From NCBI GenBank assembly GCA_013314775.1, contig JABUFB010000009.1, positions 372,001 through 436,000 of the forward strand: 64,000 bases of DNA, written 5' to 3'. The DNA comes from Armatimonadota bacterium. GTDB taxonomy: Bacteria > Armatimonadota > Zipacnadia > Zipacnadales > JABUFB01. The notes beneath the pieces were generated by a model that did not search any database, was not told the DNA's origin, and worked only from the letters and a program-made list of their open reading frames with translations. The translations under genes were made by a program, and so were the position numbers. Shown piece by piece: positions 17,560-57,301 of this stretch (the first letter of the stretch is position 1; each line of letters begins with the position of its first letter).

Positions 17560-17624
17560 TGCGTAGTAGAACGAGCAGGTCAACGGAGACAGTTCGAGAC
17601 CGCTAACCGATGGCAGGCTAAGCC

Positions 17625-18560
17625 ATGGCAGAGATGCAGGCCGAGACAAAGTGCAGCCCGTGCTCCTGGGCGCCGCCCTGGCCCCTGTCGACTCTTGCCT
17701 GGGCAGCAGCCATCTCTGTACTGATGCTCCTGCTATACTGGGAGGTCGGAGTGCTCTTCGTCTCCCGGTGGTTCTCCAATGAAGTCTACTACCACTGTAT
17801 TGCCGTGCCCCCGCTGTTGGGGTGGCTCGTGTATCAGCGCCGCGAGCAACTTCTGTCAACACCGCCAAGACCGTCCTACGCAGGGATAGGCCTGCTTGGT
17901 TTTGGATTGTTGCTGGTCATCGCCGCGGCGAGGATCGGTTTCAACCTGCTTACGGGGGTATCCTTTCCGTTTGTGGTGGCGGGGCTGATATTGCTCTTGT
18001 GGGGCCCGGCAGCCCTGCGCATCCTGGCGATGCCCCTGTTCGTTGCTTTGTTCCTCATCGCCCCGCCTATGCATGCGCTGGCGCTCATCACAATGCCGAT
18101 GCAGAAGATCTCCGCCTGGCTTGCCGCACATGGGGCGAACCTCCTGCTCGGGCTGCCGGTCGAGCGCGAAGGAATCAACCTGTTTCTTGAGGGGCAGAAG
18201 TACGTGGTCGCTGAACAATGCAGCGGCATGAGCTCCTTTCTTGCCCTGAGCCTCACGGTCATTTTCCTGATAGAGATCTCCGGGCTGACGGCAGGGCGGA
18301 AACTGATCGCACTGGCCAGCCTGCTTCCCATCGTTATCAGCGCGAACGTGGTGCGCCTTTCACTCGTGCTTCTGACGGCCCAATTCTTCGGGCCCCGGGT
18401 GGCGATGGGCGACCTCGTGCACGGCGGGACCGACGCCCTCGTGTACCTGTCGGCTCTTGTCCTGGTCATACTTTTTCTTGGGGCACTCTTGCCCCGCGAT
18501 GATCGTGAGACAGATGACGATGGGGTGGAATGGGAGGACGAAGCGCACGCTTCTGGTTGA
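17625..18560 (+). CDS. Exosortase (transmembrane cysteine transpeptidase-like)
   Basis: A 311-residue, eight-span membrane protein of the exosortase/EpsH family. The conserved catalytic set is visible: Cys199 in AEQCSGMSS, Arg244 in ANVVRLSL and His266 in GDLVHGGTD. Exosortases recognise PEP-CTERM-type C-terminal signals, cleave them and probably attach the protein to an envelope polysaccharide. EpsI is a separate gene two positions upstream, and a membrane glycosyltransferase lies between. The only candidate substrate in the window is the CTERM protein at 56240. The acidic C-terminal tail (291-306) is unusual for the family. The exosortase subtype was not determined. Confidence 0.9.
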   Translation: MAEMQAETKCSPCSWAPPWPLSTLAWAAAISVLMLLLYWEVGVLFVSRWFSNEVYYHCIAVPPLLGWLVYQRREQLLSTPPRPSYAGIGLLGFGLLLVIAAARIGFNLLTGVSFPFVVAGLILLLWGPAALRILAMPLFVALFLIAPPMHALALITMPMQKISAWLAAHGANLLLGLPVEREGINLFLEGQKYVVAEQCSGMSSFLALSLTVIFLIEISGLTAGRKLIALASLLPIVISANVVRLSLVLLTAQFFGPRVAMGDLVHGGTDALVYLSALVLVILFLGALLPRDDRETDDDGVEWEDEAHASG

Positions 18561-40846: not shown

Positions 40847-42307
40847 CTATTCGCTCAGTACGAATGCGCCTGGTTGGGCAACGAGCAGCGCGTAGATGAA
40901 CCAGAACATCGACATGGTCGCCTCGAAACGGTAGATGTTGTGCAGGTAGGCGACACCTCCCCATGCGACCAAAGACGCTAACAGGCTGACGTAGAGACCG
41001 TCATCGATGTCTATACCATCGCGCGCCCGACGATAGCCGTGGTATATAGCGACCAGGATGAGCACCATAAGGCCGCCCCAGAAAGCGGCCCCAACGATGC
41101 CGAACTCAATTAGCAGGGAGAGGTAGAAGTTGTGCGTTTCCTTTCCCTCCCTGGCGACGCTCTCGAGCGAGCGTTGGGTGCGGCCCCACAGCGTCAGCTC
41201 TTCATCAGGGATGAGTGCCTCATCGATCCTGCGCATGACCCGGTGCGCCTGATAGAAACCTATCCCGAAGGCGGGGTTCCACTCGGGCGACCTGAGAATC
41301 GCGTAGCCTATCTCCCGATACGCTGCTCGCGACTCATCCTTCTCATCGAATCGATTGAGCAGGTCCTCGCCAAGGTTTGAGGTGGACCAGGGAATATAGC
41401 CAAGCAGCCCGAGCGCTATCACAGTTTTCACCGTGGGTCGCATGCTTCTCGACAGAAGGCACAAGGGAACGCAGATCAGCAACGCAAGAGTAGCTCCTCG
41501 CTGCTGGGTGAGAGTCGTTGCGTAGACGGTCAGGCCCAGTCCTGTGTAGGCAAGGAAGCGGCCCGACGGTGACTTCGCGTTGTGGAGCGCACGTATGAAG
41601 AGAGGCACCCACATCGCCAGATAGGGCGCCGCCTCCCAGAAATACACAAACGGTCCGGTTGCATTCCCGTCGTGAGTTGTGTAGATAGAGCTGTGGCCGG
41701 TGGTTCCCTGTCGTATCATCAGAAGCGCCTGGACGCCCAGCACTATGACGTTCGCTTGCAGGAGCTTTCTGATCCTTGTGGCGTCGAACGGGATGATCCT
41801 CGTGATGTAGTAGAAGCCCATCGGCAGGATCATCTTGTTCACGTACTGCTTGTAGTAGGTATCAAAGCAGTTGTTCTCCACAAGGCCGACGAACCCCCAT
41901 ATTGCAAGGCCGGTCAGAAACACGTCAGATGGCATTATCCGGAGTTCACGGCGGTCTTTGAGTGCGGAGAGGTAAGCAAAGAGGAAGACGACTGGGACGC
42001 CCGCCTGAAGCACGTTTGGGATGTAGTAACCGAAGAAGGTCGACTCACACGGCAACACGGCGAACTGCACCAACATCAGCAACAAGCCCCAGAAGGGATC
42101 GGCCAGACAGACGAGGGCGAATGCAAGCCCCGCCAGGCCGAGGAGACCATACGCGGGGTTATCCAGCAAGACCGACCAGCCAAGCACCAACGACGTTACC
42201 AGCACTGCAACGGCGATGTACAGTACCGATTTCGAACCACTCTGGAAAGCCTTCAGGCCCGCCGGAAACCCAACTGCGGTCTGTTCTGCCACCCGTCTAT
42301 CCTCCAC
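40847..42307 (-). CDS. O-antigen ligase/polymerase-like membrane protein
   Basis: A 486-residue protein with 10-12 hydrophobic segments and a large polar loop between the later spans. KETHNFYLSLLIEFGIVGAA (about 394-413) is the Wzy_C/O-antigen ligase signature, with WNPAFGIGFYQAH earlier in the loop. It would polymerise flipped repeat units or ligate the finished chain in the periplasm. It is the only polymerase/ligase candidate in the window, so Wzy function for this locus is likely (inference). The N-terminus begins with a short cytoplasmic stretch before the first span near residue 29. Confidence 0.85.
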   Translation of the reverse strand: MEDRRVAEQTAVGFPAGLKAFQSGSKSVLYIAVAVLVTSLVLGWSVLLDNPAYGLLGLAGLAFALVCLADPFWGLLLMLVQFAVLPCESTFFGYYIPNVLQAGVPVVFLFAYLSALKDRRELRIMPSDVFLTGLAIWGFVGLVENNCFDTYYKQYVNKMILPMGFYYITRIIPFDATRIRKLLQANVIVLGVQALLMIRQGTTGHSSIYTTHDGNATGPFVYFWEAAPYLAMWVPLFIRALHNAKSPSGRFLAYTGLGLTVYATTLTQQRGATLALLICVPLCLLSRSMRPTVKTVIALGLLGYIPWSTSNLGEDLLNRFDEKDESRAAYREIGYAILRSPEWNPAFGIGFYQAHRVMRRIDEALIPDEELTLWGRTQRSLESVAREGKETHNFYLSLLIEFGIVGAAFWGGLMVLILVAIYHGYRRARDGIDIDDGLYVSLLASLVAWGGVAYLHNIYRFEATMSMFWFIYALLVAQPGAFVLSE

Positions 42308-42406: not shown

Positions 42407-43969
42407 CTACTCCTGCCTGGGCAGGATCTCAACTCTCGAGCTCTCATTCGAGGGTCTGACATAGAACCGGTTCAGCGCATCGAACACTCGCTTGCCTGTG
42501 TCACTGTTCCTGGCTCCTTCCGGCACCAGACTTCGAATAATGCCGATATCTTCCGTTCGGAGTTGCCCCCGAAGCATCAGCAGGTAAAGCAGGGGAGTGA
42601 TGAGTATGGCCAGAGCCTGCAACCCGCTGCTCCGGAACGCACCCGACCAGATCATCGTGAAACATAGCGCCATGGCGCCGCCCGTGGCCCCGAGAAGAAC
42701 CGCTTGTCTGGAATGCCTGGGCTCAAACACACGTCTCGTCAGGAAGACCGCCACTGGCAGCACCAGAAGAGGCGCAAGGCCGCGCGCCAACGCGGCGCCC
42801 ATGCTTCCCCAATAGGAGCTTAGCACCGCAATCAGAAGGGTCCCGCTCAAGGCCAGGAGAGAGTCGAGGACGAACGGGTGCCACCTGTTCCCAAGGGCGA
42901 TGACGTGCTGGCGATAGAGGGAGAAGAAGGTCTGCACGAGGAGGTACATGCAAAGGACCGAGAAGACACTGCCTGCCGCTGAGTACTCTTCGCCGGCATA
43001 GAGAGTGATGATGGGCCGCCCTGCAGCCGCTAGCCCGATATGAAGAGGGACCAAGGCCAGGAAGTAGTACCTGCTGCACTTTGTGAAGCCTTCCTGGAAG
43101 GCAGTGCGCCCCCTGTGGGCGGCCTCCGAGAGCTTTGGCAGCATGGTATCCATCAGATGCGCATCGACGTGCGCAATGTACTCAATGATCTTGAACGCCA
43201 CGTAGTATGTAGCGAGGCTTTGCGTCCCGCCGATGGCGCCAACCAGAACATAGTCCGCATGGGACAGAAGACCCGCCGAGATACCGGACGCGAAGTACGG
43301 CATCGAAATGCGCAAGAGAGAGCTTCCGGGGGCAAACCCCGTCCCCCTTCTGAGCCGTGGCCACAGAGATATCAGGCCCACAATGCAACCTAATGCGGGC
43401 CCAATTGCCAGGCCGATGATCGCCCCCTCAATTCCGCCCATCCAGTAGCACACTACAGAACCGACAGGGCGTATGACGTTCCTCAAGGTGCGGCTTACCG
43501 CAAACATCTTGTACTGCTGGAACGCGTTCTGGAACCACTCCAAGTGTGTGGCCATGGTCGCGAGAAAGACAGCGATTGCCAGGAGGCGGACAACATTTGC
43601 TGACACTTCATTCTTGAGCATGACCGTGGTCACGGGCTCGGCAAGCAGGTATGCCAACACGCTCAGCAGCAGCGTGCTGATCGTGACAAGGAGAAGGCCG
43701 CTGCGCAGCAGACTGCAGGCCCGTTCATCCTCGCCCTGGGTCAGAAGCTTCGGTATCTCCCGCGCAAAGCAATCACGGAAGCCGAAGTTGCTCAGCGTAT
43801 AGATGATTGCGACGAGGCTGACGCAGGCGGGCCAGGCTGACAACTCGCCCGAAGGCAGGTTGCGGGCCAGCCATGCGGATGGCAGGAGGCTAGCCAACCC
43901 AACGACGAATTGGCCAGCTACGAGGTAGCTCGTATCGCGAATGACTCGTGCGGCACGGGAGGTAACCAT
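42407..43969 (-). CDS. Oligosaccharide flippase (Wzx-like, MOP superfamily)
   Basis: A 520-residue protein with about 12-14 spans and the Wzx layout: VAGQFVVGLASLLPSAWLAR (17-36), a FGFRDCFAREIPK break, and the later AGISAGLLSHADYVLVGAIG and RPIITLYAGEEY loops. It is only distantly similar to the flippase at 26597, while the fragment at 40130 is its close relative. It would translocate a lipid-linked unit. It begins 751 bp from the kinase gene and has its own promoter candidate at 44515-44543, so it probably opens a separate transcript. Confidence 0.88.
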   Translation of the reverse strand: MVTSRAARVIRDTSYLVAGQFVVGLASLLPSAWLARNLPSGELSAWPACVSLVAIIYTLSNFGFRDCFAREIPKLLTQGEDERACSLLRSGLLLVTISTLLLSVLAYLLAEPVTTVMLKNEVSANVVRLLAIAVFLATMATHLEWFQNAFQQYKMFAVSRTLRNVIRPVGSVVCYWMGGIEGAIIGLAIGPALGCIVGLISLWPRLRRGTGFAPGSSLLRISMPYFASGISAGLLSHADYVLVGAIGGTQSLATYYVAFKIIEYIAHVDAHLMDTMLPKLSEAAHRGRTAFQEGFTKCSRYYFLALVPLHIGLAAAGRPIITLYAGEEYSAAGSVFSVLCMYLLVQTFFSLYRQHVIALGNRWHPFVLDSLLALSGTLLIAVLSSYWGSMGAALARGLAPLLVLPVAVFLTRRVFEPRHSRQAVLLGATGGAMALCFTMIWSGAFRSSGLQALAILITPLLYLLMLRGQLRTEDIGIIRSLVPEGARNSDTGKRVFDALNRFYVRPSNESSRVEILPRQE

Positions 43970-44720: not shown

Positions 44721-45410
44721 CTATTCTTCCTCTTGGTAGTAATAGCGATAGTATGAGGTCATGATTGCCGAGTCTTGGGGGTTGATGTCGTTCACGACTA
44801 TGCCCGCGATATTCGCGCCCACGTCATGAAGCGACCCGAGGGCCTGCTTCACGACCTGGGCATCGCCGCGAGCACGGGCAACGACGAGGACTCTGTCGGT
44901 CAGGGGCGCGAGAGAGAGCGTCGCCCCGAAGCCGACTGCGGGCATGGCATCGATGATGACGAATTCACTCATGTCGGCGATCTGACGAATCGCCTGGTGC
45001 AGGTGCTCGCTCAGCATGAGCTCGGAAGCTCTATCCACCTGCGTCCCTGCGGGGACCATTTTCAGCGTGTCGACTTGTGTCGGGCAGAGAACTTCATCAG
45101 CGGTCATGTTGCCGGCGCACAAGTCAGTCAGTCCGGGCCGGCCACGCAGACCGCACGCGCGGCTCAAACCCTGGAGGTTCGCGTCGGCGTCAACGGCAAT
45201 GGTCTGCTTACCGGCCAAGGCCAGAACCGTGGCAAGGTTCGCAGCAACAGTGGTCTTGCCTTCCCGGGCTTGCGCACTGGTGACGAGCACCGTCTTGAAC
45301 GGCTCGCGCCCCCAGAGCCCCAGGAGGTTCGCGCGCAGAACGCGGAAGCCCTCAAGGAAGGCGGAGTTTGGAGGCGCGGGCCCCAGGAACGTGTCAGTCG
45401 TGGGTAACAT
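44721..45410 (-). CDS. CpsD/CapB-like ATPase, probable BY-kinase
   Basis: A 229-residue P-loop ATPase. LVTSAQAREGKTTVAANLAT is the Walker A region, TIAVDADANLQG the Walker A' region and FVIIDAMPA Walker B. The C-terminus ends in a Tyr cluster (SYYRYYYQEEE), the autophosphorylation tail of bacterial tyrosine kinases. Two residues differ from the usual motif: the PGEGKT stretch reads AREGKT and the Arg of DxDxR in Walker A' is Asn. It would pair with the Wzz-like protein just upstream to control chain length. ATG 45410 has GGAGAG five bases upstream; the in-frame TTG at 45425 is less likely. Confidence 0.82.
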   Translation of the reverse strand: MLPTTDTFLGPAPPNSAFLEGFRVLRANLLGLWGREPFKTVLVTSAQAREGKTTVAANLATVLALAGKQTIAVDADANLQGLSRACGLRGRPGLTDLCAGNMTADEVLCPTQVDTLKMVPAGTQVDRASELMLSEHLHQAIRQIADMSEFVIIDAMPAVGFGATLSLAPLTDRVLVVARARGDAQVVKQALGSLHDVGANIAGIVVNDINPQDSAIMTSYYRYYYQEEE

Positions 45411-45493
45411 GGAAACTCTCCGCAAACGCCAGCGAGTCCGGCCTATGGGTTCTAACGGTGCAGGCCGCTGTTATTGGGACCATCGGGAAACCC

Positions 45494-46954
45494 TCAGCCC
45501 GTTCCCGCTTGATCTTCCTCTCGGGGCGGTCCTGTTGCGGGAGATTCCTCAATCACCTGCACGTCGCTGTGAGGAATCCCTCCCAGTACAGGGCATCCCA
45601 GCAGCCTCTCGGCGTCTTCTTCGTTCTTGAACGTCGTGTCGGTGTAGTGCAGCAGGAAGATCGCGATGATCCCGAGGCCCGCGCCACCAAACAGTGCCAG
45701 CCCAAGCCGGATTGCGAACTGCTTGAGTAGGCCCTCCTCGCGGGGAATTCGCGGCTCCGCAACCGTCTTGAGCATAAATTCCGCGTCGCGCCGAGCCCGA
45801 AGCTCAGCTTCGGCCGACCGAAGGCTCTCCTGGACTGTCAAATAGCGCTTTTGCAGGGCGGTGGCGTCAGCACTCAGCTTCTCGTACTCCACCAAGTCTG
45901 TCCGGGCGGCGGACAGACGATTCCGTAGTTCGCCCTCGCGCGCTGCAAGCAGTTCGCTGCGTGCGGCCATCTCTTGCGCGTATGTTTGCGCGGCGATTGC
46001 TGACTCCTGCACGAACGCCGATTCTTGCTGAGCAACCGCCTCTGCCTTCTCGAGGGTGGCGACGCGCTTTCTCATATCATCAATCTGGCGCTGCAACGCC
46101 AAAACGGACGGGTGATCCCGGGTGCGCCGCTCGAGCATATCGGCCAGCAGGACCTCGCGCTCCATGATCTGCTGCTTGAGATCATCAATACGTTCGACCA
46201 ATGCAAAGTTGGGCGCGTTCGGGGTTCTCGAGGGCTGTGTAGCAAGCGCTTTGGATCGTTCTTTGGCCGCCGCCGTCTCCAGATTGGCGTTCTGCAACGC
46301 CATCTGCACCGCTGCAAGGGATGCTTCTATGCTTTCGGCTTCCTTGGCCGGGGCCAAGCCCCCGTGCTTCGCCTCGATCGCTTCAGCACGCGCCTGCGTT
46401 TCCTGAAGTCGTTGCGCGATCATAGGCAGGCGGCCACGCAGGCCATCGATCACGCTCTGAGCCTCTCTGATTTTCTCTTCGCGCCAGACCTCGTCCCACA
46501 ACTCCATACCAGCTTTGGCTACGTCGATGCTTGTCTGTCGCCTGGATGCCGAGCAAGAGAAGACAGCGAACCTGCTGTCTCTAATCTGCTTGGCAGTGAT
46601 CGTGATTTTGTACTGGTCCTCGGCCTCCGGCGGGAGTTTGAGTTTTTTCAGGATTTCGCCCAGTGCGTCGGGATTGGAGCCCATCTGAAGCAGGTTCGGC
46701 CAGAACTCCTTTTCCTGCGCGATGACAAGCTCGTCACCCTGGGTCAGCATAGTGGGCATTGCGACAGGGTGCACGAGAACCGTCCCTTCGGCCGTGTAGG
46801 AGCGCATCCCTCCGGAAACCAGCTGGATTCCCACCACTACCAGCCCCGCAAGAACGGCGCCGAGAATCAGGAGCCAGACGCGCTCACGGATTATGCGGTA
46901 GTACTCGATGTATTCCACGGTATTGAGCCCTTGAACGGCGTCGGTTTCGAGCAC
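45494..46954 (-). CDS. Wzz/GumC-type polysaccharide co-polymerase
   Basis: A 486-residue protein with a membrane span at about 27-48, a long periplasmic region with coiled-coil heptads at about 150-400 (for example LKQQIMEREVLLADMLERR) and a second span at about 417-441 (RLGLALFGGAGLGIIAIFLL) close to a short cytoplasmic tail ending near DVQVIEESPATG. This is the chain-length determinant layout. The kinase domain is encoded separately, as in CapA/CapB systems. It starts with GTG 46954, three bases after the stop of the SLBB protein, so co-translation is likely. Confidence 0.88.
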   Translation of the reverse strand: MLETDAVQGLNTVEYIEYYRIIRERVWLLILGAVLAGLVVVGIQLVSGGMRSYTAEGTVLVHPVAMPTMLTQGDELVIAQEKEFWPNLLQMGSNPDALGEILKKLKLPPEAEDQYKITITAKQIRDSRFAVFSCSASRRQTSIDVAKAGMELWDEVWREEKIREAQSVIDGLRGRLPMIAQRLQETQARAEAIEAKHGGLAPAKEAESIEASLAAVQMALQNANLETAAAKERSKALATQPSRTPNAPNFALVERIDDLKQQIMEREVLLADMLERRTRDHPSVLALQRQIDDMRKRVATLEKAEAVAQQESAFVQESAIAAQTYAQEMAARSELLAAREGELRNRLSAARTDLVEYEKLSADATALQKRYLTVQESLRSAEAELRARRDAEFMLKTVAEPRIPREEGLLKQFAIRLGLALFGGAGLGIIAIFLLHYTDTTFKNEEDAERLLGCPVLGGIPHSDVQVIEESPATGPPREEDQAGTG

Positions 46955-46957
46955 GGA

Positions 46958-49900
46958 TCAGTCATTGAAGAGCAATCGGCCAACGCCTATGTTTAGGAGC
47001 CAATCCAGAAGGTTCTGCTTCCGCTCCTTCGGTCCCGGGACGTAGATCAGGTCGCCGTCCTGCGGCGTGCCGGCGTACGACGTCGCGTCCAGCCGTGTGA
47101 GTTCCGTAATACTGTAGCGGTCTTTGACTCGAACCGGCGCGCCCTGTTGCGCGCTGCCTGCCCTTACAGAGCCGTCTCGTGGTGCCGGGGGCTGCAGGTG
47201 CGACGGAGCACCACCGAAAGCCCGGTGGATGCTGGGCTCGCCCGCAGCTTGCTCCTCGCGACGCGTACGAGAAGGTTGGGCAGTTCGCGGTGCCGGTGTC
47301 GTCGTGGATGCGGACGCCGTCTTGTCGCCGCTGGTGCCAGATGTTTCTGGGACGGGATTCTGGCGGGCGGCGCGCACAATCCATATTCTGTCGACGCGGC
47401 TCTGACCGCTGAGCCCACCGGCGTGAGCGATCAGGTCCAAGTACGTATCACCAGGTTGCAGCGGGTACGCCCCGGGCCGTCCGACGCTACCAAAAACGAA
47501 GACACGTGCCTTGCTCAGCGGGATGACGAGAGAGTCGCCTGCCTGTAGCTCGAGGTTCGTCGCGTAGTCTCTATTGTCGAGAAGAGCCCGCAGGTCCAAA
47601 GGTATCGTCTGCCCATCGCGCAGCAGAGTGGCAGCTTCAAGGTTCGCCGTGGGCAACGTGCCGCCTGCGATCGCAAGCGCTGCGAGCACCGTATCGGCTT
47701 GCGTGAGAAGATAACTGCCCGGTTGTTTGACCTCGCCGATAACGTGGAAATTCTCCTCTGCTTTGGGCACCACCAGCGCATCGTTGGCCAGAAGCGGCAC
47801 ATCTGCGTCTGCTTGCCCCCGGTTGATCACGGCGTCAAGATCAACCGGGATGCGCTCGCTTCCCCGCATGATATACGCGCCCCGCAGGTCAGAGACAAGG
47901 TCGATGGGGCCGCCGCTCAGCACGAGAGCCTTGGAGGCTGTGACAGCACGCGTGATCGGGTGGGCACCGGGCGCTTTGACGTTCCCAATCACGTAAACTG
48001 GATCCGGATCCGCTGCTGGAACCATGAGTACGTCGTCAGCCTGCAGGGCCAAATCTTCACTCTCGCCCGCTATGACAGCACGCAGGTTCACAGGGACGCG
48101 TTCGCCATCGCGGACGATGAACGCCGCTTGCAGATCGGCTGCTTCAGCTGCCCCGCCACTCACAGTGAGAGCAGACAGCACCGTGCCGGCTTGATCAAGA
48201 GGCACGCGGCCTGGCGCCCGCACCGCACCCGCAACCATGACCATCTCGGGAACACGAGGGGGCACTACCAGCACGTCTCGCGGTTGCAGAGAAAAGTCGG
48301 GCGCCGTTCCGTTGCGGATCGCTTTGAGGTTGATATCGTGCCGGATGCCTTCGCGCAGCACGTATGCACCCTCGAGGTCAGCGGCTTCTGTCACGCCGCC
48401 AGCCATGGCAAGGGCGGCGTTTACCGTCCCTGCTTGCTCGTGCAGCAGCATTCCAGGTTGCGGGACAGCACCGCTCACCATGATCCGGCGAGAAAACTCC
48501 TGGGCCGCGAGCATTTCCGGTGTCAAGACTGGAACCACGAGGATGTCGTTGGCCTGCAACGCGACGTTGTCCGGCCCGCCCTCGCTACCGAGCTGTGCCA
48601 GGTTCAGAGAGATGGTCTCTTTCCCGCGGAGCACGTAAGCGTGCTCGAGGTCTGCCTGGGGGGTTGGTCCCCCGACCCAGGCCATGGCGCGCGCTACGGT
48701 GTCGCACTGCTCCGGCGCGAAGAGGCCCGGGCGCGCGACCGCGCCCGCGATAGTCACACTCTCCCGAGCTCGGCTTGCAAGGTCCGCCTCGGGTGACCTC
48801 AGGGGGACGACGATGAGGTCATCGGGCTGCAGATCAAAGTCGGCCTCCTCGCCGTGCAGTATTCTCAGGGCGTCAATGTCCACACGTGTCGCCCCTCGCA
48901 ATACATACGTGCGCTCAAGATCTGCTTGGGGAGCAGGACTTGCCAAGGCTAGAGCCCGAGAGACCGAATTGCTCCAGTGGTGCGCCTGTGGACCGGGTGC
49001 AGTCACGGCCCCGGCAACGTAGACCATAGCGTCTGCCTTGTCGGGAACGATGAGGACGTCTCCCCCGCCAACAGCGAAATCTGGCTGCGATCCCGACATG
49101 ACGGCTTCCAGGTCAACCTCACTGCTCAACTCGCGGCGCAAGAGCTGGCACTGTGCAGGGTTTGCGTTGGTCGTGAAGCCACCGGCTAGCAGCACGGCTT
49201 GCCGAGCAGTGGCGGCCAGTTCGGCCGGGATCATTCCAGGGCGTGCAACTGCCCCCATTACGAGGATCGAGGCGGCCATCTGGTTCGCCGCAGTCATTGT
49301 CGGCACGACCAGCAGGTCGCTGGGTTTGAGGGGGAAGTCTTCTCCACCGGCCAGGATCGCCGGGATATCCACATCGATACGCGTTCCATCTCTCAGCACA
49401 TAGCCACGTTTGCCGTCGGCAGTGGGAAGCAGACCTCCGGCCAGTGTCACCGCTTTGGCCACCGAGTCGGCCATATTTGCCGGTTGCGCCGACGCTTGCC
49501 TCACCGCGCCGACGATGACCACCGGAAGCTGGCTTATCTGTGGCACCACCAACATATCCCCGGGCCGAAGTTCGGGATCCGGGCCGCTGCCACTGATCGC
49601 TGCCTCGCCGTCCACGCTGATGCGATCGCTGCCGCGCAGGATATACGCTGCCGACAGGTCCGCATTAGGCGCTGGGCCGCCGGCGTAGATGATTGCGCGT
49701 GACACGGTGCGCGCCTGAGAGAGGGGCGCCGGCCGCGGCTGCATAACGGCGCCGGTGACTGCTGCCTGGCGCGCCATCGCGCGTTCCATCGTCAGAATCG
49801 GCACCACCAGCAGATCCCCCGCCTGCAGTGGTACATCCTCGGCCTCACCGTTCATGATTGCCCCAAGATCGACGTATACCAGTTGCTCTCCCCTGAGAAT

Positions 49901-51847
49901 GTAGGAGCCTTCCAGGTCGGCATTCGGGGCGGTTCCGCCCGCGAACACAACGGCGCGACGCACGGTCGGCACCTGAACGATGGGCACCAACTGGGGCTGA
50001 TTGACCGCGCCGGCAATCAGCGCCATACGCGCCAGTTGCTCCTGCGCAACCTGATCGGGCGACTTCGTGGGCACGATCACGAGATCCCCCGGCTGGACGA
50101 TGATGTCATCCGACCCCTTGCCAGTCATGAGGTCTGTGATGTCCAGCCGAATCCGCTCAGCGCCGCGCAGCACCTGCACACCGGCCAAGTCTGCCATGGG
50201 TGTGACGCCGCCTGCGTACACGAGCACCCGCATCAGGCTATCAGCCTGAGCCAACGGCACCCGCGTGGGCTGCGCGACCGCCCCGGCGACCACCACGCTG
50301 CGTTCCCACTGTTCCTGCTGCAGCCGCTCCGGGGTTTTCGGAGGAACGACAATTAGGTCGTTGGCCTCGAGAGCAACGTCCCCGGCCCCGCCTCGCATAA
50401 GAGCGCCGAGGTCGAACGGGATCGTTTCCTTGCCTCTCAGGATGTAGCACTGTGTCTGGTCAGCAAGGGGTGTGGGCCCGCCCGCGAAAGTGACGGCCTT
50501 CGCCAGCGTGTCGGCCCAGGTCATCAGTCTCGGACCCGGGCTCGCCACAGCCCCTACGACGTACACGCTGTCAATGGGTAGCGAGGGCACGACCAGGATG
50601 TCATTGGCCTTGAGCGGGATATCCTCCGAGGTTCCCCGAAGGATCGCCTGGAGATCCGCATCGATACGAGTCCCGTCACGCAGGATGTAGGAAGCGCTGG
50701 GGTTCGCGGTCGGGGCAAGCCCTCCTGCCAGGGTCACGGCACGAGCCGCGGACTGGACCTGCGCCAATGGCATCGCACCTGGGGTAAGGACGGCACCCGC
50801 AACGATGGCTACCTCCGGTGCCCCAACGCCTGTCTCGCTGGATGCCAGCGGAATTACGAGTACGTCCTTGTCCTGCATTGCCACGTCTTCAGTATCCGCC
50901 GAGCCGTCGAGAAGCCGCGTGAGATCGACCTCGATCCGTTCGGGGCCTCGAAGAATGTAGGACCGGGACAGCGCCGCGCCGGATACGCCGCCTCCTGCCA
51001 GGATGAAGGCGCGGGTGCAGGTGTTCGCCTGCTCGATGGGAACAAAACCGGGGCGCTGGACCGCGCCCGTGACGAACACCATTTTTTCGGGCTTGCGCGG
51101 TACGATGACCATGTCCCCCTCAGACAGGGGAACGTTGGCTGGAATAAAATCAACACCGCCTTCGACGTCCGCCGGAACCCTGATCCGCTGCTTACCCCGA
51201 ACGATCACGATCTGGCTCAGATCACCCGTTGGCGTAACCCCGCCTGAAGCCGCGAGCAGACTAAGGAGATTGGGTGCCTCGTCAAGCGGTACCGGTCCCT
51301 GGCGCGGCACCTCTCCCATGATATGTACAAGCGCCGATGTGCCGCCAACAATGGACACGACAACCACGGGGTCGACCAGGTACTTCCTGCCCTTGTCTGC
51401 AATAATCCGCGCGACTTGTTCAGTGGATTTCCCGGCAACCGCAATGACCCCGAGATACGGCATCTTGATCTTGCCGTCGGCGGAGACGGGGAACTGCCCC
51501 GAGAACTCAGGCTCGTCTGCGATATAGATGTCGATGAGGTCGCCAGACCGGACGGTGCCCCGGGTCATCGCCATGCCGGGCGTGATCCGAGGCGCGGTTG
51601 TTCGGCTTCCGGGCATGGTGGCTGCAGTTGAGCCACCTGGGGGGAAAGCGATGTCAGTCGCCGGGGAGATAGATGCCTGCAAGGCGGCGGTCACGTCCAT
51701 CACGCTGAGGGCGTGAATAGCAGGCTGGGCCAGGCTGGGACCAATGAAGAGAAGGAGGAGGAGGAATAGCGTCAACTGCGGCAACGGCGCCGACGAATTC
51801 TCAGCAAGGTGAGCCCCGTTCTGGCTTCGACCATCGTACGTTGCCAT
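46958..51847 (-). CDS. Giant polysaccharide export protein with 16 SLBB-like repeats
   Basis: From ATG 51847 the product has 1629 residues. A signal peptide covers residues 1-40 (hydrophobic run LFLLLLLFIGPSLA). A Poly_export domain at about 97-168 (SGDLIDIYIADEPEF, DPVVVVSIVGG) is followed by about 16 tandem SLBB-like units of 80-95 residues, each opening with a GAV-x-x-PG strand and an AGG turn and closing with a DILVVP-type strand. Wza-type exporters have two. Unit 16 is interrupted by a Ser/Thr/Pro/Arg-rich linker of about 85 residues before its last strand (DGDLIYVPGP), and the chain ends in a hydrophobic helix (LLDWLLNIGVGRLLF) like the outer-membrane helix of Wza. The frame is open up to 52012, but the signal peptide fixes the start. 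The AAGGA ribosome site lies about ten bases upstream. Confidence 0.9.
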   Translation of the reverse strand: MATYDGRSQNGAHLAENSSAPLPQLTLFLLLLLFIGPSLAQPAIHALSVMDVTAALQASISPATDIAFPPGGSTAATMPGSRTTAPRITPGMAMTRGTVRSGDLIDIYIADEPEFSGQFPVSADGKIKMPYLGVIAVAGKSTEQVARIIADKGRKYLVDPVVVVSIVGGTSALVHIMGEVPRQGPVPLDEAPNLLSLLAASGGVTPTGDLSQIVIVRGKQRIRVPADVEGGVDFIPANVPLSEGDMVIVPRKPEKMVFVTGAVQRPGFVPIEQANTCTRAFILAGGGVSGAALSRSYILRGPERIEVDLTRLLDGSADTEDVAMQDKDVLVIPLASSETGVGAPEVAIVAGAVLTPGAMPLAQVQSAARAVTLAGGLAPTANPSASYILRDGTRIDADLQAILRGTSEDIPLKANDILVVPSLPIDSVYVVGAVASPGPRLMTWADTLAKAVTFAGGPTPLADQTQCYILRGKETIPFDLGALMRGGAGDVALEANDLIVVPPKTPERLQQEQWERSVVVAGAVAQPTRVPLAQADSLMRVLVYAGGVTPMADLAGVQVLRGAERIRLDITDLMTGKGSDDIIVQPGDLVIVPTKSPDQVAQEQLARMALIAGAVNQPQLVPIVQVPTVRRAVVFAGGTAPNADLEGSYILRGEQLVYVDLGAIMNGEAEDVPLQAGDLLVVPILTMERAMARQAAVTGAVMQPRPAPLSQARTVSRAIIYAGGPAPNADLSAAYILRGSDRISVDGEAAISGSGPDPELRPGDMLVVPQISQLPVVIVGAVRQASAQPANMADSVAKAVTLAGGLLPTADGKRGYVLRDGTRIDVDIPAILAGGEDFPLKPSDLLVVPTMTAANQMAASILVMGAVARPGMIPAELAATARQAVLLAGGFTTNANPAQCQLLRRELSSEVDLEAVMSGSQPDFAVGGGDVLIVPDKADAMVYVAGAVTAPGPQAHHWSNSVSRALALASPAPQADLERTYVLRGATRVDIDALRILHGEEADFDLQPDDLIVVPLRSPEADLASRARESVTIAGAVARPGLFAPEQCDTVARAMAWVGGPTPQADLEHAYVLRGKETISLNLAQLGSEGGPDNVALQANDILVVPVLTPEMLAAQEFSRRIMVSGAVPQPGMLLHEQAGTVNAALAMAGGVTEAADLEGAYVLREGIRHDINLKAIRNGTAPDFSLQPRDVLVVPPRVPEMVMVAGAVRAPGRVPLDQAGTVLSALTVSGGAAEAADLQAAFIVRDGERVPVNLRAVIAGESEDLALQADDVLMVPAADPDPVYVIGNVKAPGAHPITRAVTASKALVLSGGPIDLVSDLRGAYIMRGSERIPVDLDAVINRGQADADVPLLANDALVVPKAEENFHVIGEVKQPGSYLLTQADTVLAALAIAGGTLPTANLEAATLLRDGQTIPLDLRALLDNRDYATNLELQAGDSLVIPLSKARVFVFGSVGRPGAYPLQPGDTYLDLIAHAGGLSGQSRVDRIWIVRAARQNPVPETSGTSGDKTASASTTTPAPRTAQPSRTRREEQAAGEPSIHRAFGGAPSHLQPPAPRDGSVRAGSAQQGAPVRVKDRYSITELTRLDATSYAGTPQDGDLIYVPGPKERKQNLLDWLLNIGVGRLLFND

Positions 51848-56063: not shown

Positions 56064-56239
56064 AATGTGAATGTGGGGCGGGGACACGGGGACAGGGCAC
56101 CCGTGTGTCCAGTCATCACCAAACACTAAGCGGCCCGTGCGGCACCACGATGTCGCCGGGGGAGGTGGCCGATCGGCAAGATACCCGTCTCGTCTCCTTC
56201 AGTGGTTGCTGTGCAAGTTGATAGGAAAGGAGAAACGTG

Positions 56240-57301
56240 ATGAGGTCTATCGTGGTGTTGTTGGCCGTAGTCGCGCTATGTGCCATCGGCCCGCCCTCAT
56301 GGGCGTACTACAACCCCTTTGAGGGTTACGGTGGCCAGAATGTGACGTTGAAGCTGTATAACTTCGATGCCGGGACCCTGTACTTCGGCCTCAACCCGGG
56401 GACCACGTACAACCAGGCGGCATTGGATGCGCTCCCGATATGGAACGGCAGCGGGAGCCCTCCGGCCGGACCCTATAAGGTGCTGCCCACCGGGTCGCCG
56501 ATCCCGACTTCCGGTACGGCTTCGCTCGAGGACAGTTGGGGTATCGTCAAGCTCAGTGACATAACGCTGACAGACACCAACCAACAAATCTGGAACGCCG
56601 CCACGAGTGGCTGGGAGATTACCGGTATCTTCTACCACGAGAAAGACGCCGAGGTAACGGTCGACGCGAATAGCGGCCAGACCAATGTCTACGGCAAGAG
56701 CCTGTACGCCGTGTTCTTCGCAGAGCCGATCTCTGGCACCTTTAATGATTGGACCACCACTCCGAATGATCGTGCGTTCGAGAAGGGTGCACAGCTCGGC
56801 GCGGCCAATCGCGGCACCGACGGAAGCGGCAACCCGCTGCCGGAAATGCAGGGCGCCACGGAATCGAAGGACTCCACCAGTTACAAGAAGGGTGTAGGAA
56901 CTTCGCCGGTGCCCCTGTGGACTTTCCGGTCCGTTCTGGGAGACCCGGGGGCCAAGTCCTCGTTCACAGGAACCCAGTTCGAGTACTTCAGCCGGTATAC
57001 CACCGATAGTAGTGGGAAGATCATCACTGGCAGCGGTGGGGCCCTGGCAAGTACGTGGGTGGACCCATACTGGGGAGAGGGTGTAGGAAACGGCCAGTGG
57101 TCCATGCACCAGTTGAGCACACCCGGGACCCCTCACAACGTGAAGCTGTCGTTCACCATGAACAGCACCGGCTATCCGTGGGATGTTCGCAGCAACGACC
57201 CCATCGAGGGAAAGGTGTCGCCGGAACTGTCTTCGGCGAGCCTCATGCTTGTGGGCCTCGTGCCCATCGGCATCGTCGGGTGGCGCCGCAGGAAGAAGTA
57301 A
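56240..57301 (+). CDS. Secreted protein with PEP-CTERM-like (SPELSS) sorting signal
   Basis: A 353-residue protein: signal peptide at 1-22 (SIVVLLAVVALCAIGPPSWA), a Gly/Thr/Ser-rich body of mostly beta character with no recognised domain, and a tripartite tail of about 27 residues, SPELSS then SLMLVGLVPIGIVGW then RRRKK. The tail has the layout of an exosortase signal (motif, hydrophobic span, basic end), but the motif reads PEL rather than PEP. It should be exported, processed by the exosortase and fixed to the envelope or matrix. ATG 56240 has AAAGGAG seven bases upstream; the GTG just before is less likely. Only one such gene is present in the window. Confidence 0.8.
   Translation: MRSIVVLLAVVALCAIGPPSWAYYNPFEGYGGQNVTLKLYNFDAGTLYFGLNPGTTYNQAALDALPIWNGSGSPPAGPYKVLPTGSPIPTSGTASLEDSWGIVKLSDITLTDTNQQIWNAATSGWEITGIFYHEKDAEVTVDANSGQTNVYGKSLYAVFFAEPISGTFNDWTTTPNDRAFEKGAQLGAANRGTDGSGNPLPEMQGATESKDSTSYKKGVGTSPVPLWTFRSVLGDPGAKSSFTGTQFEYFSRYTTDSSGKIITGSGGALASTWVDPYWGEGVGNGQWSMHQLSTPGTPHNVKLSFTMNSTGYPWDVRSNDPIEGKVSPELSSASLMLVGLVPIGIVGWRRRKK

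Follow-up and report, generated by a model that had tools for sequence, protein, structure and literature searches.

A 16-unit polysaccharide export protein in Armatimonadota and the concerted lengthening of membrane-bridging proteins in its host family

The polysaccharide export (OPX) protein Wza of Escherichia coli has two SLBB domains, and OPX proteins with 1-14 SLBB domains have been reported from a survey of the NCBI non-redundant proteins (Saidi et al. 2022, PMC9603273). Proteins that bridge the envelope can be long where the envelope is wide. The periplasm of Thermus thermophilus is ~70 nm wide and is crossed by a long PilQ (PMC4463427), and TamB of Deinococcus radiodurans reaches 4002 aa, a length that the authors tie to an envelope with at least double the thickness of the E. 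coli envelope (PMC5382914). Periplasm width has itself been described as a regulated and functionally important distance (PMC5771553).

Here, we analyze a 64,000-nucleotide stretch of an Armatimonadota genome, hereafter the window, which encodes an OPX protein with 16 SLBB units. The reading frame at complement(46958..51847) runs uninterrupted for 1629 codons before its stop. Its start codon is uncertain; with an upstream GTG, the product would have 1684 aa. The protein consists of a signal peptide, one Poly_export domain, the 16 SLBB units, and a short helix-like segment at the C-terminus, in that order:

46958..51847, minus strand: OPX (polysaccharide export) protein, 1629 aa, 16 SLBB units (ORF, Pfam, motif scan, unit HMM)
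51728..51784, minus strand: signal-peptide hydrophobic core LPQLTLFLLLLLFIGPSLA, aa 22-40 of the 1629-aa version, Sec/SPI type, no lipobox (sequence)
51350..51553, minus strand: Poly_export domain, aa 99-166 (Pfam PF02563, E 3e-16)
51077..51325, minus strand: SLBB unit 1 (unit HMM)
50807..51076, minus strand: SLBB unit 2 (unit HMM)
50564..50806, minus strand: SLBB unit 3 (unit HMM)
50294..50563, minus strand: SLBB unit 4 (unit HMM)
50021..50293, minus strand: SLBB unit 5 (unit HMM; in AlphaFold model of units 5-8)
49763..50020, minus strand: SLBB unit 6 (unit HMM; in AlphaFold model of units 5-8)
49520..49762, minus strand: SLBB unit 7 (unit HMM; in AlphaFold model of units 5-8)
49265..49519, minus strand: SLBB unit 8 (unit HMM; in AlphaFold model of units 5-8)
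49022..49264, minus strand: SLBB unit 9 (unit HMM)
48755..49021, minus strand: SLBB unit 10 (unit HMM)
48482..48754, minus strand: SLBB unit 11 (unit HMM)
48239..48481, minus strand: SLBB unit 12 (unit HMM)
47996..48238, minus strand: SLBB unit 13 (unit HMM)
47747..47995, minus strand: SLBB unit 14 (unit HMM)
47501..47746, minus strand: SLBB unit 15 (unit HMM)
47024..47500, minus strand: SLBB unit 16, split by a linker (sequence, unit HMM)
47114..47356, minus strand: low-complexity Pro/Ser/Thr/Ala-rich linker in unit 16, about aa 1498-1578 (sequence)
46961..47023, minus strand: short C-terminal helix-like segment RKQNLLDWLLNIGVGRLLFND, 21 residues, presumed outer-membrane end (sequence)

The PF02563 match (59.7 bits against a Pfam cut-off of 28) and the SLBB domains that follow it, of which the OPX family calls for at least one, place the protein in this family. 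The core of its signal peptide resembles those of the orthologs in G254 and G256. We refer to the bacterial family of the source genome as the host family; G254, G255, and G256 denote genomes or genera within it.

Three approaches agree on the number of units. The Pfam model SLBB_2 (PF22461) matches 16 stretches (whole-protein E 2e-125), a scan for the motif that opens each unit finds 16 starts at intervals of 81-91 residues, and an HMM built from the units of three paralogs finds 16, of which fifteen score 69-90 bits and the split last one scores 41. With PF10531, an older SLBB model, 14 stretches match. A preliminary description of this DNA had counted about 16 SLBB-like units and had the last one split by a low-complexity linker; both points hold, the linker being the ~80-residue stretch in unit 16. 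Its comparison of 16 units with the two of Wza is correct as a count but omits the reported OPX with 1-14 SLBB domains and the 4-6 found in the nearest relatives outside the host family. The Wza-like C-terminal helix that it proposed is only partly borne out: a terminal segment of 21 residues is present, but it is shorter than the 35 residues of Wza, and a Pfam scan up to E 1 gave no match to Wza_C (PF18412, about 35 residues). A short terminal segment of 21-26 residues, located after all SLBB units, is common to the 16-unit proteins and their 5-unit relatives. The GfcC module (PF06251) of Class 2 OPX (KpsD type) also gave no match up to E 1, and the protein lies outside the long 8-unit OPX clade that serves as the outgroup of our tree.

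The source genome, probably a metagenome-assembled genome (MAG), comprises 37 contigs, so a collapsed or expanded repeat in the assembly has to be considered as the origin of the 16-unit array. We found no tandem repeat at the DNA level in this gene, and its units average only ~38% identity to one another. Moreover, an independent MAG has the same architecture with the same 16 units at ~90% identity, and dN/dS between these two species of the same genus is 0.03-0.21 in each of the 16 units. Every unit of the protein is under purifying selection. Based on the independent assembly, the absent DNA repeat, and the per-unit selection, we reject an assembly artifact, to which we assign next to no probability; the preliminary description had reached the same view from the divergence of the units.

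Genes for a Wzz-like polysaccharide co-polymerase (PCP) and a BY-kinase are located directly downstream of the OPX gene, with Wzx and Wzy candidates in the neighborhood, the latter by position only:

45494..46954, minus strand: Wzz/XrtA-type polysaccharide co-polymerase, normal length (TIGR03007, E 1e-15; length ratio 1.00 to relative)
44721..45425, minus strand: BY-kinase / Wzc-like ATPase (TIGR03018, E 2e-32)
42407..43969, minus strand: Wzx-type flippase (NF011679, E 1e-9, below cut-off)
40847..42307, minus strand: multi-spanning membrane protein, candidate Wzy polymerase (sequence and position only, no family match)
17622..18557, plus strand: exosortase, XrtW/XrtA-like (TIGR04178 signature over cut-off; XrtA E 4e-33)

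In the PDB, the OPX protein has its best sequence matches among Wza proteins. It scores 345 bits with TIGR03027 against a cut-off of 180, a value summed over the repeats, with the best stretch covering positions 5-166 of 169. Given its neighbors, the Wza matches in the PDB, and the TIGR03027 score over cut-off, we assign the protein as the OPX of an exosortase-linked Wzx/Wzy cluster for exopolysaccharide. A separate gene at 56237-57301 (+) encodes a secreted protein with a PEP-CTERM-like tail (SSASLMLVGLVPIGIVGWRRRKK) and no NCBIfam match, which the exosortase at 17622-18557 could plausibly process. No Rfam elements were found in the 64-kb window.

The source genome (6.1 Mb, 98% complete) contains three Poly_export genes, each encoding exactly 16 SLBB units by both motif scan and unit HMM. 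The orthologs in G254, which belongs to the same genus, have 16, 16, and at least 15 units, the last being cut by a contig end. Complete copies in G255 have 16 and 13 units, and the one complete copy in G256 has 16, with two further copies cut by contig ends. SLBB number sets the complete host-family copies (13-16 units) apart from those in nine other families of the class, where 57 OPX have 4-8 units and one additional 254-aa copy has 2.

On a maximum-likelihood tree built on Poly_export and the first SLBB, the three paralog groups fall into three separate supported clades beside 4-5-, 5-, and 6-unit relatives, and the minimum number of changes from short to long is three. A tree constrained to keep all long OPX together is worse by 113 log-likelihood units (p-AU 3e-24). 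Since the paralogs sit in separate clades whose relatives have 4-6 units, we conclude that the expansion happened three times. A single 16-unit ancestor that was duplicated three times is ruled out by the tree, the AU test, and the weak position-wise likeness between paralogs (unit identity is 0.35-0.38 within a paralog compared to 0.27-0.33 between paralogs at the same position). In the paralog termed C8, units 1-3 match units 1-3 of a 5-unit relative and unit 16 matches its unit 5, and the twelve middle units resemble its unit 4, apart from one that resembles its unit 3, suggesting that essentially one unit was amplified.

Within the host family, units are orthologous by position despite an identity that falls to about 0.5-0.75 between genera, which suggests that most copies have kept a constant unit number; only the C11 type in G255 departs from it, with 13 units. 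The dN/dS of the other two paralogs is 0.08-0.09, again between two species of the same genus. Under a uniform null of 8-20 units, the 16/16/16 equality has a probability of 0.006, a rough figure because the pattern was noticed before the null was set.

These observations bear on an alternative in which the additional SLBB units are unrelated to periplasm width and instead help to handle the polymer, whether through grip, selectivity, processivity, or the storage of one particular long polysaccharide. Contact with the sugar polymer has been predicted for SLBB domains (PMC9603273), and the three paralogs, whose unit sequences differ from one another, probably serve different polymers. However, they arrive at the same number independently, and TamB, the pilus secretins, and MlaD, none of which has a sugar substrate, are lengthened in the same family. 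We therefore consider polymer handling an unlikely cause.

Several other OPX loci deserve mention. In G265 (L068:6323-11089 (-)), a 1589-aa OPX has a secreted glycoside-hydrolase-like N-terminal part of ~800 residues fused before Poly_export and 8 SLBB-like units. In G256 (G256:C231:23496-24422 (+), L064), one 400-aa frame has three Poly_export matches and adjoins a separate 6-SLBB frame, an arrangement of tandem Poly_export domains that may represent a split gene. A contig filed under a Chloroflexi MAG (L057, JAKJAE010000261.1) carries a piece 84% identical to the window OPX and is probably mis-binned.

Beyond OPX, further proteins that bridge the membranes are long in the host family. TamB has 4300 and 4365 aa in two members; a third member, whose contig starts within the gene, shows at least 2882 aa. 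Among 65 other genomes of the phylum, the range is 1449-2366 aa. The Tad/CpaC-type secretin, recognized by its Tad-type N-terminal domain, has 13, 11, and 14 BON-like units in three members, compared to 4 in all five of the relatives (5/5). Transenvelope-type MlaD, leaving out one 354-aa frame, has 888, 889, 912, and 797 aa, compared to 497-672 aa (about 530) in relatives. The PilQ-like secretin reaches 771-824 aa, compared to about 556-614 aa, via a Pro/Ala-rich linker. Two features of wide-periplasm envelopes of the Thermus/Deinococcus type are found in the host family, namely a TamB lengthened to about 4000 aa and a secretin with extra periplasmic N-domains.

Some features of individual proteins are worth recording. 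The helical region of MlaD (L159-L161) holds many similar short segments (MVETSAADVEKTS...), suggesting elongation by repeat duplication. Pro/Ala-rich linkers of ~200 residues occur near the N-termini of one TolC and one PilQ-like secretin of the host family (L152:1065-3263, L120:829-3297) and are absent from the relatives compared. G255 (L059, L123) has slightly lower numbers in several systems, with 13 SLBB units in one OPX, 11 BON units, and an MlaD of 797 aa, yet it has 16 SLBB units in another OPX.

Reciprocal best hits among the examined loci show a median length ratio of 1.06 over 58 pairs, a few of the listed pairs being antisense frames. OPX, TamB, and the BON-secretin are at the top, with ratios of 2.0-2.7, and MlaD is at 1.5-1.7. 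Omp85 (0.96) and Wzz (1.00), which do not bridge the full intermembrane distance, are unchanged. For the loci compared, we reject general protein lengthening on the basis of these ratios and of Omp85.

A neutral or lineage-wide expansion of repeats and proteins with no common functional cause could in principle have produced long arrays, since unequal crossing over can enlarge repeats, and Pro/Ala-rich linkers were added to TolC and the PilQ-like secretin as well. Such a process is difficult to reconcile with the non-bridging neighbors, Omp85, and Wzz, none of which is longer, and with the low median ratio. It also does not account for a unit number frozen between genera in most copies despite divergence, for purifying selection on every unit, or for lengthening that does not involve ring repeats, as in the TamB groove and the MlaD helices. 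We regard neutral expansion as quite improbable.

The main counter-evidence to a wide periplasm comes from efflux systems. In the one pair that we aligned, the efflux adaptor (HlyD/MFP) of the host family is not longer than its relative, and the TolC core is not longer either, one TolC having gained only a Pro-rich low-complexity N-terminal tail. Efflux pumps may work at narrower sites, or they may already be long in the whole order. TonB_C is absent from the host family, so TonB could not be used as a further ruler. We note that throughout the order, in all families examined, long frames (about 550-740 aa) are common among efflux adaptors of the HlyD type, and that these frames apparently carry very long helical hairpins.

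Across the phylum without the host family, the open-frame lengths of OPX and TamB rise together among the OPX matches listed, with rho 0.65-0.70 over 65 genomes and 0.64-0.68 for family means (n=30 families), kinship above the family level being uncorrected. This covariation in sequence length is suggestive.

We modeled units 5-8 with AlphaFold as a monomer fragment, using an alignment of the other units of the window OPX and the same-genus protein. The model has a pLDDT of 85 and a pTM of 0.39, and its inter-domain geometry is uncertain. In a Foldseek search, Wza proteins were its best matches, and the list thereafter consisted mostly of ubiquitin chains, which share only the beta-grasp fold. 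Aligned singly, the modeled units give Z 14.1 and 1.6 Å against the SLBB domain of WzaB, and a pair of consecutive units fits both SLBB domains of a Wzc-bound Wza at 3.2 Å over 159 residues. The Poly_export end, modeled from three sequences, was of poor quality (pLDDT 68), with Wza as its best match. The superpositions of single and paired units are compatible with Wza-like ring stacking, without proving it.

We think it probable that the SLBB stack spans the periplasm as a conduit and that its ring number follows the width of an unusually wide periplasm. The 16 SLBB domains of each subunit would stack as rings, with a Poly_export ring at one end, close to the co-polymerase of the inner membrane, and the presumed C-terminal helix at the other, at the outer membrane. 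The polymer would pass through the lumen of a presumably octameric tube. The rise per SLBB ring, from the dimensions of Wza, we take to be 2.7-3 nm. At this rise, 16 rings plus Poly_export would measure about 46-51 nm, and a five-unit protein would come to about 16-18 nm. The conduit, roughly 45-50 nm by this estimate, would thus have about threefold the length of that of the 5-unit relatives. Thirteen BON rings plus the secretin core would give a length similar to that of the 16-ring OPX. Ring number would then be set by the distance to be bridged, with the membrane-connecting proteins lengthened to match.

The preliminary description had offered both a long tube across a thick periplasm and a ring-stacked conduit through an S-layer. 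The first now has good indirect support, as the paralogs came to 16 independently and TamB, two secretins, and MlaD are long in the host family only. We found nothing in favor of a tube pointing outward through an S-layer or sheath. It is argued against by the C-terminal segment, which forms the terminus of the short relatives and, behind the whole SLBB array, of the 16-unit proteins as well. In addition, TamB and MlaD, both longer here, bridge only the inner and outer membranes, which argues that the elongation is periplasmic. We judge an outward tube very improbable.

We lean slightly toward a broader version of the periplasm-spanning conduit, in which SLBB number is an evolvable ruler. Bridging machines in the host family would have been rescaled together (three OPX to 16 rings, the Tad secretin to 11-14 BON units, TamB 2.4-fold, and MlaD 1.5-1.7-fold) around a periplasm of perhaps 45-60 nm, and width could be read from gene lengths throughout the phylum. 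Such a ruler would be inexact, given that G255 has a 13-unit OPX beside a 16-unit one. We found no cryo-EM work on the Armatimonadota envelope in the literature searched, and the width of the host-family periplasm is therefore one that we infer.

The host family represents a natural experiment in which three OPX, TamB, two secretins, and MlaD changed length together. Such concerted lengthening would indicate that the SLBB stack must reach a set distance and would support bridge models for TamB and MlaD. It bears on whether OPX proteins form a continuous periplasmic tube and on what sets periplasm width. If a wide periplasm can be read from the genome, the envelope geometry of uncultured bacteria may be predictable from sequence.

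Compared to described systems, the window OPX resembles E. coli Wza and its OPX relatives (PF02563 plus SLBB; PDB 2J58 and 9R60 series) in having Poly_export followed by SLBB, a presumed C-terminal helix, and a Wzz-like PCP with a BY-kinase. It differs from Wza in having 16 SLBB units instead of 2, no lipobox, and a short C-terminal segment with no Pfam match to Wza_C. It also resembles the XrtA/PEP-CTERM export protein of TIGR03027 and EpsE (TIGR03028): aa 99-251 match nearly the full TIGR03027 model, and an exosortase is encoded in the same region. That model spans one Poly_export and one SLBB, and the whole-protein score of the window OPX is inflated by repeats. The domain order is that of the Class 1 OPX, for which as many as 14 SLBB domains have been reported (PMC9603273). 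As PF10531, the model used in that survey, gives 14 here, the lineage of the window may already sit in its tail, although PF22461 gives the true count of 16. The independent expansion of three paralogs and the link to bridging proteins are not described there.

Thermus PilQ and Deinococcus TamB likewise are bridging proteins that are long in a wide envelope, and the 4002 aa of the latter are near the 4300-4365 aa of the host family. Those reports concern single proteins in other phyla, with no OPX ring expansion or comparison of multiple systems. Transenvelope MlaD of Veillonella parvula (419 aa; PMC10665443) shares the MCE domain, long helical region, and C-terminal barrel-like domain with host-family MlaD (797-912 aa), in which the helical part is much longer. 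No paper in the literature searched describes repeated convergent expansion to a single SLBB number, or TamB, secretins, and MlaD that scale jointly with it. Long OPX architecture was already known, and it is the coordinated, convergent scaling that appears to be new.
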